Assembly: GCA_001464455.1 (NCBI GenBank)
Contig: LNEI01000017.1
Span: 1-64,000, forward strand
Direction: 5' to 3'
DNA: 64,000 nucleotides
Origin: Acidobacteria bacterium Ga0077534
GTDB lineage: Bacteria > Acidobacteriota > Blastocatellia > Pyrinomonadales > Pyrinomonadaceae
Shown: piece by piece, positions 171 to 55,758 of the stretch
How the letters are laid out: the number at the start of each line of letters is the position of its first letter
Numbering within the stretch: the first letter of the stretch is position 1
Notes under the pieces: generated by a model
The model's input: only the letters and a program-made list of their open reading frames with translations
Databases searched by the model: none
What the model was told of the DNA's origin: nothing
Translations under genes and position numbers: made by a program

Positions 171-245
<75 letters not shown>

Positions 246-260
246 CGGTACTCCAAAAAA

Positions 261-335
261 TGGAGCGGAAGACGAGACTCGAACTCGCAACATTCAGCTT
301 GGAAGGCTGACGCTCTACCATTGAGCTACTTCCGC
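261..335 (-). tRNA. tRNA-Gly (anticodon TCC)
   Basis: A 75-nt cloverleaf with encoded CCA. The acceptor arm is GCGGAAG/CTTCCGC, the anticodon stem TCAGC/GCTGA encloses the loop CTTCCAA (anticodon TCC), and the T loop is GTTCGAGTC. It lies 15 nt from tRNA-Thr on the same strand. Confidence 0.97.
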
Positions 336-411
336 GAGATAAAGGTTAAAAAGTCAAAAGATATGCACGCCGCCGTATCTATCCCTTCTTCTCACCGTTA
401 TCCTTTCAAAA

Positions 412-499
412 TGGTGCATGGGGTAGGATTTGAACCTACGTAGGAAATTAATCCGACGGGTTTACAGCCCGTTGCCTTTGACCGCTCGACCACCCATGC
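412..499 (-). tRNA. tRNA-Tyr (anticodon GTA)
   Basis: An 88-nt class II tRNA with a long variable arm and encoded CCA. The acceptor arm is GCATGGG/CCCATGC, the anticodon stem ACGGG/CCCGT encloses CTGTAAA (anticodon GTA), and the T arm carries GGTTCAAATCC. First tRNA of the unit. The order Tyr-Gly-Thr-tuf matches the core of the enterobacterial tyrU-glyT-thrT-tufB cluster. Confidence 0.97.
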
Positions 500-30905: not shown

Positions 30906-31964
30906 GTGAAGATCGTATTGATCCTAATTGGGCTGACCGCTATGGCGACAACGTTACTACCGTTGTCTCGAAGCGATGCGTGGTGGGTGCGCGTTTTTGA
31001 CTTTCCGCGGATGCAGATCTACGTGGTAACACTCGCCACTTTCGTTCTCTACGCAATTTTTGCTGTTGATCCGGGGCTCCTCAGCATCATTTTCCTCGTC
31101 GCATTGGCGGGCTGTCTGGCTTATCAGAGCTACATGATGTACCCGTACACTCGGTTTGCGGGCAAACAGGTGCAGGCAACCGTCCGAGCTAACGATGACT
31201 CAACCATTGGCCTGCTGTTCGCCAACGTGTTGCAAGAGAACCGCAACGCGAATGAGCTGATAAAGATCATTCGCGACGCCGATCCGGACGTCATTCTCAC
31301 TGTCGAGACCGATCAGTGGTGGAAGGAAAAACTGAGCGAACTTGAGCAGACTTACCCGCACACGGTCATGCAGCCGCAGGACGACACGTACGGCATGATC
31401 CTTTATTCGCGGCTCGAGCTGATCGATGCCGAGATAAAATTCATGATCGAGGAAAACGTTCCTTCGATTCACGGGCGCGTCCGGCTCAGATCCGGACTCG
31501 AGGTTGAGATCCGTTGTTTACATCCGCCCCCGCCGGTCCCGACCTTTAATGACAGCTCAACCGAACGTGATGTCGAACTGCTGATAGTCGGAAAGGAGAT
31601 CAAAAAGCTCGATCGCCCTGCTGTTGTCTTCGGCGACCTGAACGATGTCGCATGGTCGCGGACCAACTACCTATTCCAGGATATTAGCGGCCTCCTTGAC
31701 CCGCGTGTAGGCCGCGGTTTTTACAACACCTTCCATGCGAAATATCCGTTCATGAGGTTTCCCCTCGACCACTGCTTCCACTCGAATCACTTCAGGCTAG
31801 TCGATTTCCGGCGGCTCGCCTACTACGGCTCAGATCATTTTCCGGTCTACATAAAACTAAGCTACGAACCCGATGCCGAGGTCGAACAGGAAGAACTCGA
31901 AGCGACCGTTTCCCAACAAAAAGAGGCCCAGGAAAAGATCGATGAAAAACTAGCCGAGACTTAG
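30906..31964 (+). CDS. Endonuclease/exonuclease/phosphatase family membrane protein
   Basis: 352 residues starting at a GTG. Three or four hydrophobic helices (about residues 1-80) anchor it in the membrane. The EEP domain follows: a LLFANVLQENRN start, the Glu in ILTVETDQ, the Asp-Asn of GDLNDVAWS and the terminal DHFPVYIK. The C-terminus is a Glu/Gln-rich helix, probably a coiled coil. Such proteins hydrolyse phosphodiester bonds; the substrate is unknown. A hairpin-rich block lies just downstream. Confidence 0.87.
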   Translation: MKIVLILIGLTAMATTLLPLSRSDAWWVRVFDFPRMQIYVVTLATFVLYAIFAVDPGLLSIIFLVALAGCLAYQSYMMYPYTRFAGKQVQATVRANDDSTIGLLFANVLQENRNANELIKIIRDADPDVILTVETDQWWKEKLSELEQTYPHTVMQPQDDTYGMILYSRLELIDAEIKFMIEENVPSIHGRVRLRSGLEVEIRCLHPPPPVPTFNDSSTERDVELLIVGKEIKKLDRPAVVFGDLNDVAWSRTNYLFQDISGLLDPRVGRGFYNTFHAKYPFMRFPLDHCFHSNHFRLVDFRRLAYYGSDHFPVYIKLSYEPDAEVEQEELEATVSQQKEAQEKIDEKLAET

Positions 31965-32059
31965 GCGACTCCATACCCGGTTGCCCGGCGATAAACTGCA
32001 GACAACGATCGTCAAATCTAAGGGGTTGGTACTTAGCCCATTTCTTTAGCTCTACGGGC

Positions 32060-32088
32060 TTGACTCTTTGTCTTTTCTATGATACGCT
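32060..32088 (+). promoter_or_regulatory. Candidate promoter upstream of the four-hairpin array
   Basis: TTGACT (32060-32065) resembles a -35 box, and 17 bp later comes TACGCT preceded by TGA, which fits an extended -10 (TG-N-TANNNT). The predicted start lies near 32095, about 70 bp before the first hairpin of the array at 32166. It is in a gene-free stretch. Weak -10 hexamer, so only a possibility. Confidence 0.35.
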
Positions 32089-32165
32089 GTGCAATCGATG
32101 TTGATATTTGAAAATTAGAAGATCCTCAATCGAATCCTTCTTGCTCAGAATTCGGTCACGGAAGG

Positions 32166-32418
32166 CGTCTCACTTGCCGGCAATTACTTTTTTCGCAGTG
32201 AGACGATTTTTCGTTGTAACTTATTTGTTTAAGACTATTTAGGCCGTCTCACTTTCAGCAAGCAGGTGAGACGGCTTGGGGAAAAGAGGATTTGTTTAGG
32301 ACCTAGTTAGATCGTTCCACTTCCGCTTTGGCATTTTCGCAAGTGGAACGATTTTTCGCTGTAAGTATCTTCTTTTACAACAATTAGCCGTTCCACTTGT
32401 CGCACGTAAGTGGAACGG
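32166..32418 (+). repeat. Array of four regularly spaced hairpins with two stem sequences
   Basis: Hairpin stems begin at 32166, 32243, 32312 and 32388, spaced 77, 69 and 76 bp. Hairpins 1 and 2 share the stem core GTCTCAC/GTGAGAC (32166-32205, 32243-32275); hairpins 3 and 4 share CGTTCCACTT/AAGTGGAACG (32312-32351, 32388-32418), perfect over 11 bp. Linkers are similar between units: hairpins 1 and 3 are each followed by an A/T run then TCG and TGTAA, and the sequences before hairpins 2 and 3 both contain TTTGTTTA then GAC and TTAG. The block therefore arose from duplicated units whose stems changed while pairing stayed intact. The T runs after hairpins 1 and 3 make them terminator-like on the plus strand. 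Confidence 0.8.
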
Positions 32419-32420
32419 TA

Positions 32421-34697
32421 CTAAAGGTTTTTGACGATGTAGTCAGTCATCATCGAATACATGTGATGCACCTGACGAGGTTCGGTCACGCCGTGGCGTT
32501 GGGTTGGGTAGAGCATCAGGTCAAACTGCTTTCCTGCTTTTTGCAGTTCGTACACAAACTGCGTCGTGTTCTGCATGTGCACGTTATCGTCCATCATGCC
32601 GTGGATGATCATGAGGCGGCCGTGTAGGTCTTTAGCGGCTCCGGTTATCGAGTTTTTGTCGTAGCCCGCACGGTTATTCTGCGGCGTCTGCATATAGCGT
32701 TCGGTATAGATCGAGTCGTAGAGACGCCAATCGGTCACCAGGCCTCCGGCGATGCCCATCTTGAACGACTTGCTCCGCGTCATCACGTAAGCAGTCATCG
32801 AACCGCCGTAGCTCCAGCCGTGAAGGCCGATGCGCGAATCGTCGACGTAGGGCAGCGAACGAAGGTAGTTTAGCCCATCTTCGATATCGCGGAGCTCGAG
32901 TTCGTACATGCGTTTGTATATCGGCCAAACCGATTCCTGGCCTTTGCCGCTTGCCGAGCGGTTGTCGCAGACCCAGACGATGTAGCCTTTTTGAGCAAGC
33001 ATCTGGAACCACATCCCGCGATTCCCTCCCCAGCGATTGGCCACCGACGGAGCGTGCGGGCCCGCGTAGGTGAACTGGAACACGGGGTATTTCTTCGACG
33101 GGTCGAAATTCGGCGGCTTGATCATCATCGCCTCCATTTCAAATCCGTCCCGGGTTTTAACGTTAAGGAATTCCGGCGTGCTGTAGCGATAGTCCTGCAG
33201 CGTCGCGGTCCGGTTCTCATTGATGACCCGCTCCAGCGATCCGTCGGCACGGAAAAGCCGCGTTTGCGTCGGGGTTACGACGTTGCTCCAGTTCGATACG
33301 TAGTGCGTGAATCCTTTGTTAAACGCCGCCGCGTGCCAGCCGTCGCCCTTGGAGAGTCGCTGCACCTCGCCCCCCGTAAGCTGGACGCGATAGATATTTT
33401 CGGCAATATGGCTGTCCCGTGTGCCCGAAAAATAGACCCAGCCGGAGTTTTTGTCGACGCCGTAGACGGTACGGACTTCCCACTTTCCGCTGGTCAATTG
33501 CCGGACAAGATTGCCTTCGCCGTCGTAAAGATAAAGGTGCTTCCAGCCGTTTCGCGACGATTCCCAAAGCCACATGCCGTTAGCGGCGGCCGTGTCGACG
33601 AAAACGGGATTATCATTTACTTCGACGGAGGCCGGAGTGGTTTCGGTCAGGATCTTTGAAAATTTACCGGTTGCGACGCTCGCCGAATTTAGGTCGAGAA
33701 AGGTCTGTTCGCGGTTTAGTGCTTGGAACAAGACATTCTTGCTATCCGGCGACCACGCGACGCGAGCGATAAGAAGGTCGTCAGGCTTATAGGTCGCTGT
33801 ATCGACGTATTTTACGGCATCGCCGAGTCTCACGAGTGACGAAGGCAACCGCCCGCCGATCTTCGGGATACGCGCGGCATTCGGTAGGACCGGAGTTTTG
33901 CCAACATCTGCAATTCCGACCTTTACGAGCGGGTTCGGGTCACCGGCCTGCGGATAGCTCGACACCTCGAGGGTCTGATCGGTCGGGATATCGTTGACTA
34001 AGGTGAACTTCGGTACCGGAGACTCATCCAACCGCAAAAACGCGATGTAACGCGAATCCGGCGACCACCAGTAACCCCGTTTCTGCCCGCGGCCATAAAG
34101 CTCTTCCTCGTAAACCCAGTCGAGGTAACCGTTGTAGATCGGCTTGTCACCTTCCTTGCCGTCGCGGGTCAGCTGCTTTTCGCTTCCCTTCGCATCGACG
34201 ACGAAGAGATTATTCCCGCGAACAAAACTGATCAGTTTGCCGTCGGGGCTAAAATCTTGTTCTTTCTCTTCGTCACGGTTGTTCGTTAGCCGCTTTATCG
34301 AGCGAGTCGCCAGTTCGTAGAGCCAGAGATCGCTGGAATTGTTTATGATTATCGCCGTCTCATCGGCATTGAATTGCAAAAACGGCGAATTTGCCAAAGC
34401 CGTAGCGTCCGCCGCTTTAACCCCAACCCTTTGCAACGCCGCCGACAACGAATCGCTGTCAAAGTAAGGAACCGCCTGCGAAGTGATCGCATCCACCCGC
34501 ATCAACTTCCCACCGATCACCTGCTTGAACGAGGCCCCATCGGCAGCCCACTGCACCGAAACCGGAGCCCCCGCAAACCGTACCCGCCGAGCAGGATCAG
34601 GGCTGAAGATGTCGTCGATCGTTAGCAGCTTATCCTGACCGAGGACGACTGATGAAAGGAGAAAGAAAGCGATGAGAACGAACTGTAGCTTTTTCAT
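32421..34697 (-). CDS. S9 family serine peptidase (dipeptidyl peptidase IV-like)
   Basis: 758 residues. A signal peptide (MKKLQFVLIAFFLLSSVVLGQ) leads to a beta-propeller domain (to about residue 480; repeated WSPDSRYIAFLR-type blades) and a C-terminal alpha/beta hydrolase. The catalytic Ser is in GLHGWSYGGSMTAYV, the Asp in IHGMMDDNVHMQNT and the His in PTQRHGV. It cleaves short peptides after proline or similar in the periplasm or outside. The ATG at 34697 is chosen; an upstream extension is not supported by a signal peptide. Hairpin 4 of the array ends 3 bp from the stop codon. Confidence 0.93.
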   Translation of the reverse strand: MKKLQFVLIAFFLLSSVVLGQDKLLTIDDIFSPDPARRVRFAGAPVSVQWAADGASFKQVIGGKLMRVDAITSQAVPYFDSDSLSAALQRVGVKAADATALANSPFLQFNADETAIIINNSSDLWLYELATRSIKRLTNNRDEEKEQDFSPDGKLISFVRGNNLFVVDAKGSEKQLTRDGKEGDKPIYNGYLDWVYEEELYGRGQKRGYWWSPDSRYIAFLRLDESPVPKFTLVNDIPTDQTLEVSSYPQAGDPNPLVKVGIADVGKTPVLPNAARIPKIGGRLPSSLVRLGDAVKYVDTATYKPDDLLIARVAWSPDSKNVLFQALNREQTFLDLNSASVATGKFSKILTETTPASVEVNDNPVFVDTAAANGMWLWESSRNGWKHLYLYDGEGNLVRQLTSGKWEVRTVYGVDKNSGWVYFSGTRDSHIAENIYRVQLTGGEVQRLSKGDGWHAAAFNKGFTHYVSNWSNVVTPTQTRLFRADGSLERVINENRTATLQDYRYSTPEFLNVKTRDGFEMEAMMIKPPNFDPSKKYPVFQFTYAGPHAPSVANRWGGNRGMWFQMLAQKGYIVWVCDNRSASGKGQESVWPIYKRMYELELRDIEDGLNYLRSLPYVDDSRIGLHGWSYGGSMTAYVMTRSKSFKMGIAGGLVTDWRLYDSIYTERYMQTPQNNRAGYDKNSITGAAKDLHGRLMIIHGMMDDNVHMQNTTQFVYELQKAGKQFDLMLYPTQRHGVTEPRQVHHMYSMMTDYIVKNL

Positions 34698-34822
34698 ATA
34701 TTGAAAGAAATGAACAGGATTCACACGGATTTGACGGACGAGCACGGATACTCGAACAGTTTATAGGATTTTCTTATCCGTGTTAATCCGCCGAATCCGC
34801 GTTCATCTGTGTTCCATTCTTT

Positions 34823-53525: not shown

Positions 53526-53996
53526 CTACCAACGGTGATAAGCCGGATGGCCTTCCTTAACAGCGACAAAAGTGCCCCGGCACGTGTCGCAGACCTTGCC
53601 GCCGGCGATGAGTTCAGCTTCGACGGTTGCCCGGTCATCTGAAGATTCGACGACGCGAGCTTTCAACGTGATCGGGCCGTCGACCGGCGTCGGCCTGAGT
53701 AGTTTTACATGAAAGTCCGCCGTGACCGTACAGGGAGTTTTTGTCTCGCCCCGTTTCTTCATGAGGTGATACGCGGCCGCCCAGTTTGAATGACAATCGA
53801 GCAAAGCACCGATAATGCCGCCGTTCAAGATACCCGGAAAAGCCTGGTGATGCGGCTCCGCATGCCACTCGGCGACAAACTCGTCGCCCTGGGCAAACGT
53901 GTTGATATGCAGCCCTTTATCATTTGCGGGGCCGCAGCCGAAACAAATGCTATTTGGCGAGTACTTCTGCTGGAGTGACATTTGGTCTTGCATCAT
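53526..53996 (-). CDS. Hotdog thioesterase (PaaI-like)
   Basis: 156 residues with a hotdog fold. The PaaI-type sequence is HQAFPGILNGGIIGALLDC and the pattern FPGxxNGGIIGAxxD; SICFGCGPANDKGLHI at the N-terminus has a cysteine pair. The hydrolysed CoA ester is unknown. A second thioesterase of this fold lies near 61 kb. Ends 3 bp upstream of the DinB-like start codon, so the two are likely co-transcribed. Confidence 0.87.
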   Translation of the reverse strand: MMQDQMSLQQKYSPNSICFGCGPANDKGLHINTFAQGDEFVAEWHAEPHHQAFPGILNGGIIGALLDCHSNWAAAYHLMKKRGETKTPCTVTADFHVKLLRPTPVDGPITLKARVVESSDDRATVEAELIAGGKVCDTCRGTFVAVKEGHPAYHRW

Positions 53997-54054
53997 GTTT
54001 TACTGTTACAGATTTTCTCCGAAAGACTCAACTTAAGGAAAACACTATTTTGCC

Positions 54055-55758
54055 ATGCTATCTCTACTGGCTATCGGCGTAATTGCCTGGCTCGTTTTCG
54101 GTTACTTCGCTTACGGCCGATGGGTTTCCCGTCAGTTCAAACTCGATGACAGCCGCGAGACGCCGGCCAACAAGGTGAACGACGGCGAAGATTTTGTACC
54201 GACCCAGCCGTTCTATCTATTTGGCCAGCACTTTTCGGCCATCGCGGCGGCCGGGCCGATCGCGGGGCCGATCATCGCGTGTCTCGCCTTTGGCTGGCTT
54301 CCCTGCCTGCTTTGGATCGCTCTGGGCGTCGTCCTGATCGGTGCGGTCCATGACTTTTCCGCTCTTACATCGTCGGTACGCCACGGAGCTCAGTCGATAG
54401 CCGAGATCACCCGTGACAAACTTGGCGGTAAAGCGGGCCGGGCGCTGATGGGTTTCATCTGGATCGCCCTCGTCTATGTTGCCGTAGCCTTTACCGATAT
54501 CACGGCCGGAACCTTTGTCGCAGGCGATGAATCGCTGGTCGGCGAAACACGCTTTAACCCCGGCGGTGCCGTCGCGATGGCGAGCGTGCTGTATCTAGGC
54601 CTCTCGATATTACTCGGTCTCGTCGAACGCTTTCTAAAGCCGCCGCTTTGGCTTGCTACGATCATCTTTGTTCCCGCAACATTCGCCCTCGCATACGTCG
54701 GCACGATGTTTTCGAACGTGCTCGTCTTTGGCCATCAGACGTGGGCCGTGCTCATCATCGCTTACTGCGTTGTCGCCTCGCTCCTGCCCGTTTGGGCGCT
54801 GCTGCAGCCTCGCGGATATCTCGGCGGCTTTGTTTTGTATGCCGCGATCCTCGTCGGCGTCATCGGCATCTTCTTTGGCGGCTACGAGATACAACAGCCT
54901 TCGTTCAAATCGTTCGATGTCGGCGGTATGACCGGAATGCTGTTTCCCTTCCTCTTTGTCACGATCGCCTGCGGAGCCTGCTCGGGTTTTCACGGCCTTG
55001 TATGCTCGGGAACCACCTCGAAGCAGATCGACAAGGAATCGCACACCCGGCCGATCGGCTACGGAGCCATGTTGGCCGAGGGCTTTGTCGCCTTTATCGC
55101 TCTAGTTACCGTCATGGTCGCCGTTGGCGATTCGCTGGTCGGGCCCGACGGTAAAAACCTTCCCGCGGGCAAGATCTACGGCAACGGCATCGGCAACTTT
55201 CTCGCCCTGGTCATCGGGCAGGAGAATCTAAAATTCGCGATCACGTTTGGCGCGATGGCGTTCTCCACCTTTGTCTTCGATACGCTCGATGTCACCATGC
55301 GGCTCGGCCGCTATCTGGTGCAGGAGCTTATCGGCATTCCCGGAAAGCTCGGAGCCATCATCGGTACTCTGATAACCGTTGCGGTTCCATTCGCGCTCAT
55401 ATTTCTGGCAAAGCCAGGCAGCTACATCGAATTCTGGACGCTCTTCGGTGCGTCCAACCAACTGCTCGCCGCGCTAACGCTGCTCTCGATCACCGTTTGG
55501 CTTTACAAGGCCCGAAAGCGGATCGCGTTCACGCTGCTGCCGATGTTGTTCGTCCTGTCGATCACGCTATGGGCTTTGGCAACGTTGGTCTACAGCAACT
55601 TCCAGGCAACGACCGGATTTGACATCAAGCTGATCAACGGCATTATGTCGCTCGCGTTGATAGTACTCGCGATCTTTCTAGTGATCACCGGGCTGATGAA
55701 ACTTCGTCGCGATGACGATGATGATGCTGTCGCGGGCGAATTAGCAGAGGCCAGCTAA
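54055..55758 (+). CDS. cstA: CstA-family carbon starvation/peptide transporter
   Basis: 567 residues with at least a dozen transmembrane helices. Conserved segments: YGRWVSRQFKLDDSRETPAN near the start, GPIAGPIIACLAFGWLPCLL, then GAVHDFSALTSSVRHGAQSI. CACSGFHGLVCSGTTSKQI is typical of the family. CstA/BtsT proteins import peptides or pyruvate; the substrate here is uncertain. Shorter than E. coli CstA (about 700 residues) but like other short members. Its stop overlaps the convergent gene by 4 bp. Confidence 0.92.
   Translation: MLSLLAIGVIAWLVFGYFAYGRWVSRQFKLDDSRETPANKVNDGEDFVPTQPFYLFGQHFSAIAAAGPIAGPIIACLAFGWLPCLLWIALGVVLIGAVHDFSALTSSVRHGAQSIAEITRDKLGGKAGRALMGFIWIALVYVAVAFTDITAGTFVAGDESLVGETRFNPGGAVAMASVLYLGLSILLGLVERFLKPPLWLATIIFVPATFALAYVGTMFSNVLVFGHQTWAVLIIAYCVVASLLPVWALLQPRGYLGGFVLYAAILVGVIGIFFGGYEIQQPSFKSFDVGGMTGMLFPFLFVTIACGACSGFHGLVCSGTTSKQIDKESHTRPIGYGAMLAEGFVAFIALVTVMVAVGDSLVGPDGKNLPAGKIYGNGIGNFLALVIGQENLKFAITFGAMAFSTFVFDTLDVTMRLGRYLVQELIGIPGKLGAIIGTLITVAVPFALIFLAKPGSYIEFWTLFGASNQLLAALTLLSITVWLYKARKRIAFTLLPMLFVLSITLWALATLVYSNFQATTGFDIKLINGIMSLALIVLAIFLVITGLMKLRRDDDDDAVAGELAEAS

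Follow-up and report, generated by a model that had tools for sequence, protein, structure and literature searches.

The window, by which we mean the whole stretch of 64,000 nucleotides that was analysed, contains a block of four hairpins located between an endonuclease/exonuclease/phosphatase family gene and a convergent gene encoding a dipeptidyl peptidase IV-like protein (DPP), the stop codon of which starts 3 nt past the last hairpin (Table 1). The four hairpins and two stem types described in the initial annotation were recovered at the same places. When the 271 nt from 32155 to 32425 were folded, the predicted energy was -98.3 kcal/mol, compared with a mean of -66.4 (sd 4.6) for 200 shuffled sequences, none of which was as good (z = -6.94).

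The block consists of two tandem units of approximately 110 nt, unit B with the word GTGAGACG and then unit A with the word GTGGAACG. Within a unit, arms 2, 3 and 4 keep near-fixed spacings (46-47 and 21 nt), the linker ATTTTTCG..GTAA follows the second arm, and the loop TTTCAGCA stands between arms 3 and 4, except in unit A of the window, which has a different loop. The linkers had been described as partly conserved, and indeed they lie in a direct repeat of 46 nt that is 72% identical within the array; together with the loop TTTCAGCA they are conserved on one strand. The block had also been said to match no standard RNA class, and in agreement with this no Rfam 15 family reached its gathering score over the array (the best weak match had 19.7 of 82 bits). 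Rfam matches in the window were just three tRNA genes at its start (174-499, minus strand). No plasmid DNA matching 32000-32450 was found, and in 12 of the 26 matched genomes, which were inspected for this purpose and include that of the window, the DPP genes of relatives had neighbours different from those seen here.

Table 1. Positions of the array, its leader and its neighbours in the window, and of three weaker hits elsewhere in the same genome
Feature	Position	Strand	Remarks
Endonuclease/exonuclease/phosphatase family gene	30906-31964	+	upstream neighbour; context only
Promoter-like sequence: TTGACT, 17-nt spacer, TACGCT	32060-32088	+	recognised by the joint promoter and boxA rule
boxA-like sequence TTGATATTTGAAAATTA	32101-32117	+	16 of 17 positions identical to TTGATATTTGAAAACTA of the 16S rRNA leader of this genome
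Hairpin 1 of the array	32166-32205		9 pairs, loop 22, no mismatch in paired part
Hairpin 2 of the array	32243-32275		10 pairs, loop 13, no mismatch in paired part
Hairpin 3 of the array	32311-32352		12 pairs, loop 18, no mismatch in paired part
Hairpin 4 of the array	32388-32418		11 pairs, loop 9, no mismatch in paired part
Unit B, hairpin 1 arms: CGTCTCAC / GTGAGACG	32166-32173 / 32198-32205	+	first arm inverted in this copy
Unit B, hairpin 2 arms: CGTCTCAC / GTGAGACG	32245-32252 / 32266-32273	+	
Unit A, hairpin 1 arms: CGTTCCAC / GTGGAACG	32313-32320 / 32343-32350	+	
Unit A, hairpin 2 arms: CGTTCCAC / GTGGAACG	32389-32396 / 32410-32417	+	
Unit B core: second arm, linker, third and fourth arms around loop TTTCAGCA	32192-32275	+	covariance model R1, 78.4 bits; unit itself in model
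Unit A core	32337-32419	+	covariance model R1, 87.3 bits; unit itself in model
DPP gene	32421-34745	-	downstream neighbour, convergent; context only
L071	G000:C29:2244-2321		GTCCCAC-word class
L072	G000:C16:207197-207269		GTCCCAC-word class
L073	G000:C16:125719-125790		GTCCCAC-word class

Scattered copies and their leader

Used alone as a BLAST query, the window sequence gave 32 matches in its own genome (G000). A covariance model of the core (R1), biased toward words A and B, found 36 units of at least 53.8 bits at 22 loci among the 53 matches listed at E up to 1; since the model was built from 30 units of this genome, 30 of the 36 strong matches are in it by construction. An array locus holds one or two units (three in a relative), and within a unit a single short word occurs three or four times. 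In all, the genome has about twenty such arrays, scattered and built of short DNA words in repeat, the window array among them, and the earlier view of it as a duplicated element with diversified stems was supported. At E 0.01, nine of 60 genomes were positive with R1 (that of the window included), all of one genus: 8 of the 36 other genomes of the genus and none of the 23 that represent other genera of this class. By this computation the arrays are a dispersed family at the genus level, and copies in relatives, for which the initial annotation had proposed a search, do exist. No published account of such arrays was found in a limited literature search.

Several smaller features accompany the family. 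A GTCCCAC-word class (TTTGTCCCACGAGAGGCGTGGGACAC) is represented in this genome by the three weaker hits of Table 1, upstream of which boxA-like or promoter-like stretches were seen by eye. A separate hairpin around GTAAGACAATGTCTTAC adjoins arrays, whole in G032 (L054 and L068, and partly L062) and partial in the genome of the window (L027 and L072). Locus L009 (G000:C12:88900-90400) has two array copies, each near a perfect hairpin of 15-18 bp (CCGCCAAAAGCCGAC..GTCGGCTTTTGGCGG), and adjoins a Y1_Tnp (RAYT-like) gene.

A promoter-like and a boxA-like sequence ahead of the window array (Table 1) had escaped the initial annotation. The boxA core, TTTGAAAA, starts 18 nt past the -10 element, and the range for this genome is 17-53 nt with a median of 42. 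A search of the window for the boxA pattern returned three matches against 0.22 expected, the copy at the array having one mismatch; a second boxA-like match in the region of the DPP gene (33651-33672, plus strand) has two mismatches and is probably due to chance. A stricter promoter scan found none in 31960-32450, the promoter-like sequence at the array scoring 5/6 and 3/6.

The leader was then counted with a joint rule, devised after the loci had been inspected, which asks for 5/6 of TTGACA, a spacing of 16-18 nt, a -10 element ending in T with 3/6, and 6/7 of TTTGANAA within 15-60 nt. Such a leader was present upstream of 15 of the 22 loci of this genome and of 26 of 53 loci of relatives (53 of 60 stretches were used, the seven at contig ends being omitted), compared with 60 of 3928 control windows taken at random from the 64-kb window, intergenic or not, and with 190 of 4400 sequences obtained by Markov shuffling of this genome's array upstream regions. 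Exact boxA cores numbered nine in this genome and 18 in relatives versus none in control windows and 14 in Markov shuffles. The seven loci of this genome lacking the joint leader are L013 (at the AAA_25 gene described below), both L009 copies, L016, L020, L021 and L022, and two of the 15 positive loci (L012 and L027) qualify only through imperfect cores. Simpler boxA and promoter scores pointed in the same direction with less contrast. The leader is a computational observation, and the arrays are probably transcribed.

Two explanations bear directly on these data. The first, intrinsic terminators or ordinary intergenic palindromes, could draw on the position of the array between convergent genes and on the ATTTTTCG behind hairpins 1 and 3. 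Against this stand the long loops of those two hairpins, the lack of a following T run at hairpins 2 and 4, and the conservation of leader and units at 22 loci, so that we consider this explanation very improbable; a terminator scan also listed none of the four hairpins, but its loop limit of 3-8 would bar them anyway. The second would take the block as a degenerate CRISPR array plus leader, boxA being known ahead of rRNA operons as well as of natural CRISPR arrays (Stringer et al., cited in PMC7862264). No Cas1 match was obtained in this genome (Cas1 being the one cas gene searched), and in place of a fixed-length repeat with spacers there is a first arm variable in spacing and orientation; this is the explanation in which we put the least belief, next to none. 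The likeness to boxA-led rRNA operons and CRISPR arrays, as presented in the available parts of PMC7862264 and PMC5725501, lies in the near identity of the boxA with that of the 16S leader of this genome, and the difference in that the boxA here heads a short dispersed word array.

Pairing and word conservation

An RNA helix tolerates G·U and does not tolerate A·C, and therefore an excess of G·U over A·C is expected under an RNA constraint, whereas in a DNA palindrome the two should be equal. Arms 3 and 4 form ten pairs, for which the 129 array-strand rows (1278 cells) contained 1171 Watson-Crick, 31 G·U, 29 A·C and 47 other combinations; these small numbers come from related rows in an alignment fitted to the structure, of whose 150 rows the 21 that run opposite to the array were excluded. 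An RNA-type pairing constraint on the transcribed strand is not seen in this count. Compared with shuffles, 155 cells were changed on both sides where the shuffle mean was 64, and most of this covariation comes from an exchange of the word's two middle letters; within this genome it amounts to one dinucleotide swap. Such a swap is also expected at a symmetric protein site.

The first arm gave further evidence. Among the 36 units of this genome it is inverted in 18 (and in two more with one mismatch), direct in nine, absent in two and ambiguous in two, and in the other three the second arm was not recognised. The non-inverted arm of other copies had likewise gone unnoticed earlier. In relatives the first arm is inverted in 12 of 12 units of G006, 27 of 34 of G020 (none direct), 20 of 24 of G033 (none direct) and 12 of 17 of G023 (one direct). 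Because the direct form is rare in relatives, it is chiefly a feature of the genome of the window.

With G·U and A·C mismatches equally frequent, and a quarter of the units here having a direct first arm, the pairing is not RNA-like, and what is conserved is the word rather than RNA pairing. The earlier claim that both arms change together so as to keep pairing was therefore not upheld. The suggestion that the stems could be specificity elements was supported in that they do look like specificity words.

These results weigh against a structured noncoding RNA, in which the hairpins would act as a protein sponge or as antisense and the 3′ end of the AAA_25 mRNA (see below) as a regulatory RNA domain. 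Plain tandem repeats of the word in distant homologues, and the resemblance of the C-terminal domain of the partner protein to a DNA-binding HTH, tell against it as well. It is favoured by the promoter and the rRNA-type boxA ahead of the arrays, by the strong folding and by the conservation of loop and linkers on one strand, and because leader, linkers and loop are conserved we leave it about a quarter of our belief; on balance we regard it as unlikely.

An ATPase gene joined to the arrays

One array of this genome (core G000:C25:53499-53581) follows a reading frame of 402 aa (G000:C25, match 53590-54795) and its first arm overlaps the end of the frame. The encoded protein matches AAA_25 at E 4e-13, with a RecA-type fold and Walker A, and its C-terminal HTH scores 21.6 bits, below the Pfam cut-off of 23.8. 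The overlap of gene and array is a computational observation that recurs in relatives: the first arm lies inside the end of an AAA_25 and HTH frame in G000, G020 and G023, and directly past the stop codon of such a gene in G033 and G004. A serine resolvase was considered for the first gene-linked array, on account of the recombinase-tail look of the C-terminal HTH, and was rejected because the gene encodes an AAA_25 ATPase. Among the inspected neighbours of the gene, no integrase or relaxase gene was noticed.

Close orthologues, taken as at least 44% identity with E up to 1e-60 (a cut chosen after inspection of the list), were found in six of eight array-bearing genomes and in one of 28 others, among the 36 other genomes of the genus common to both searches (Fisher p = 9.5e-5). 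The two array-bearing genomes in which none was found are G032 and G034. The genome of the window has two or more word types, but one HTH-bearing gene was found in it. A structure model of the G023 orthologue (pLDDT 82.8) is RecA-like, and its matches to RepA of RSF1010, T7 gp4, KaiC, DnaB and RadA are tied at Z 20.1-20.5. For three proteins, NCBIfam matches were all below cut-off and PADLOC matches were only weak (the best, mad8, at E 4.5e-7 for L094).

Words are clustered behind many of the homologous genes. Within the genus, 3′ flanks carry clusters of GTTCC, GTCTC, GTCCC, GTTTC or GTTCA; other genomes, mostly Bacteroidota, have further words among the flanks listed of 80 loci, and so do contigs of a viral collection, in which 19 of 29 loci were examined. 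In distant homologues the words occur as plain tandem repeats (GTTTCA, GTTCAC). A 3′ cluster of a 6-mer above shuffles (p 0.01) was present at 25 of 75 HTH-bearing homologues versus 3 of 33 without HTH, one of these three (L097) having its HTH further upstream. The gene of this genome is outside the 25, its 3′ word count alone being non-significant, and L083, L084, L087 and L103 are HTH-bearing and lack a clear cluster. One trait of iteron systems, word repeats next to a gene whose product has a DNA-binding domain, is thus present, and at the gene of this genome a family unit overlaps the end. Four AAA_25 homologues of Mucilaginibacter without HTH (L195, L196, L201 and L211) have a repeat of the CGTCATTGCGAGGAACGAAG type in their 3′ flanks.

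The relation of the word to the recognition helix of the HTH was examined in two ways, in both of which L229 was dropped as not an HTH, the helix of L075 was set by hand and L097 was added by hand. In the dictionary-free version a 5-mer reached significance for 24 of 77 proteins, and the word was shared in 9 of 10 pairs with 7/9 helix residues equal versus 13 of 266 other pairs; for ATPase identity below 45% and a 6/9 helix the result was weak, 1 of 4 versus 10 of 201 (reached in 29 of 2000 permutations). With a post hoc dictionary of 12 words drawn from the same data and a required count of 4, in which 13 of the 29 viral-collection loci were included, a unique word was assigned to 55 of 90 proteins, 44 after removal of near-duplicates. 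At ATPase identity below 40%, the same word was then found in 7 of 22 pairs with a helix alike at 5/9 or more versus 7 of 331 (0 of 2000 permutations), and helix-dissimilar pairs of 50-85% ATPase identity shared it in 9 of 258. In the sample tested, the helix was thus a better predictor of the word than relatedness was. Across the protein family, therefore, the word depends on the recognition helix by computation, with the proviso that the dictionary is post hoc.

For instance, K/R-A-T helices go with GTCTC in both Acidobacteriota and Bacteroidota, VNKYL helices with GTTCA and RKW helices with GTACG. In agreement with the first, the units of G006 (12 of 12) and G008 (2 of 2) are GTCTC units, and their genes have a K/R-A-T helix with GTCTC behind. 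A counter-example is the RST helix of G004 with GTTCC, RST going elsewhere with GTCCC. The proteins of this genome and of G023 (helix KTTAY) had three GTTCC each (a tie in G023), below the required 4 and so unscorable, and the G020 protein with the same helix was assigned GTCTC (4, over 3 GTTCC) owing to a GTCTC tail. For this reason, the pairing of KTTAY with GTTCC rests on the family unit at the gene.

Iterons, REPINs and mobilizable elements

The interpretation we prefer, with a confidence a little short of an even chance, is that the arrays are iteron-like binding arrays of a RepA/DnaB-like ATPase with an HTH, scattered as boxA-led noncoding transcription units. The protein of this genome would bind the words in double-stranded DNA in the manner of an iteron system; most likely, the HTH would hold the ATPase ring on the word arrays. 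Antiterminated transcription from the leader may then cross the array and make it accessible, whereupon the ATPase could be loaded or held, and helicase loading, helicase titration or spread of the element are candidate outcomes. What speaks against binding sites is that the linkers and the loop TTTCAGCA are strand-conserved, for which plain half-sites have no need. As with the iterons of plasmids and of related replicons that have a Rep helicase or initiator, short words adjoin the gene of the expected binder, and the modelled ATPase fold resembles RepA of RSF1010 and DnaB; unlike them, the arrays here also occur chromosome-wide as separate transcription units with an rRNA-type boxA.

A wider statement is doubtful, and we would give it about a third of our belief: helicase-like ATPases of Bacteroidota and Acidobacteriota may read a word of 5-6 bp through one recognition helix by a decipherable code, each with its own word array directly behind the gene, and in one genus the arrays (in all four GTYYCA forms) may have been copied over the chromosome as dozens of boxA-led noncoding units, forming a genome-wide address system of DNA words, motor and transcription. 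If true, nature would here have paired a helicase-like motor with short DNA words that can be addressed, the word code would be readable from sequence in dozens of genomes, and rRNA-type antitermination would be seen to act on short noncoding units in scattered places. Bacteroidota mobile elements carry an unnamed gene whose role would become directly testable, and REPIN/RAYT would be joined by a further case in which dispersed repeats are linked to a single trans-acting gene.

The REP, BIME and REPIN-like miniature elements moved by a RAYT (Y1) transposase are themselves a candidate, since the arrays are palindromic, apparently extragenic, paired and present in many copies (22 loci), and this genome has ten Y1_Tnp matches, one of which adjoins an array pair (L031); in G023 the AAA gene has a Y1 gene upstream of it. 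Elements of this kind have at one end a tetranucleotide, GTAG or CGTC, that stays unpaired (Di Nocera 2013, PMC3733652). Here there is no such tag, the four outer pairs being standard in 140-149 of 150 rows; the RAYT-like genes are for the most part not flanked by the repeats, arms in unit arrangement occurring within 1.5 kb at only one of the ten Y1_Tnp loci, and a promoter and boxA leader is absent from the REP descriptions in the available parts of PMC3733652, PMC3116915 and PMC12306157. We therefore judge this origin improbable. As an analogy, the system has in common with REPIN/RAYT, in the available account of PMC3116915, a trans gene next to one of the copies, numerous scattered palindromic doublets and gene-specific flavours, and differs in that the trans gene is an HTH ATPase instead of a Y1 transposase and that the arrays lack the GTAG/CGTC tag and have a promoter and boxA.

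Amplification is seen in G020, where the arrays form mosaic elements that resemble one another over as much as 686 bp at 85-90% identity, with blocks of GTCCCA, GTTCCA and GTCTCA plus tails of more words. Another set in that genome has four to nine GTTTCA words, and a GTTTC-type gene is present there as well. The initial suggestion that the stems could be ends of a small mobile element has these amplified copies in its favour. The ends of the G020 copies, inspected by eye for the terminal inverted repeats and target duplication of a MITE, are mosaic and of low complexity and gave no clear target duplication, and no transposase was tied to the arrays. Dispersed GTTTCA tandem words at five G020 loci (L127, L129, L136, L137 and L138) stand behind a shared stretch that is possibly a gene fragment.

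For the gene itself, in the two Bacteroidales plasmids examined of eight found (L321 and L322) an AAA ATPase gene is followed by one for DUF6371 and then by one for a mobilization protein, an arrangement suggestive of a module by which mobilizable elements are replicated or maintained. The likeness to this module consists of a homologous ATPase and, in many Bacteroidota relatives, of words clustered immediately 3′ of the gene; the difference is that DUF6371 and mobilization genes were unnoticed in the approximately 430-nt 3′ flanks of the array-linked acidobacterial genes. The maintenance of excised integrative mobilizable elements is described as unexplored in the available part of a review (PMC5704250), which counts RepA-type helper proteins among the candidates. 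Under our preferred interpretation, the dispersed arrays would be the cis component, and the gene the trans component, of a former replication or maintenance module of a mobilizable element, cis arrays and trans gene being likened to REPINs and RAYT genes. We favour such a former replication module with cis arrays copied out, giving the copying-out step about one chance in three. One of the two Bacteroidales plasmids also carries a CfxA beta-lactamase gene.
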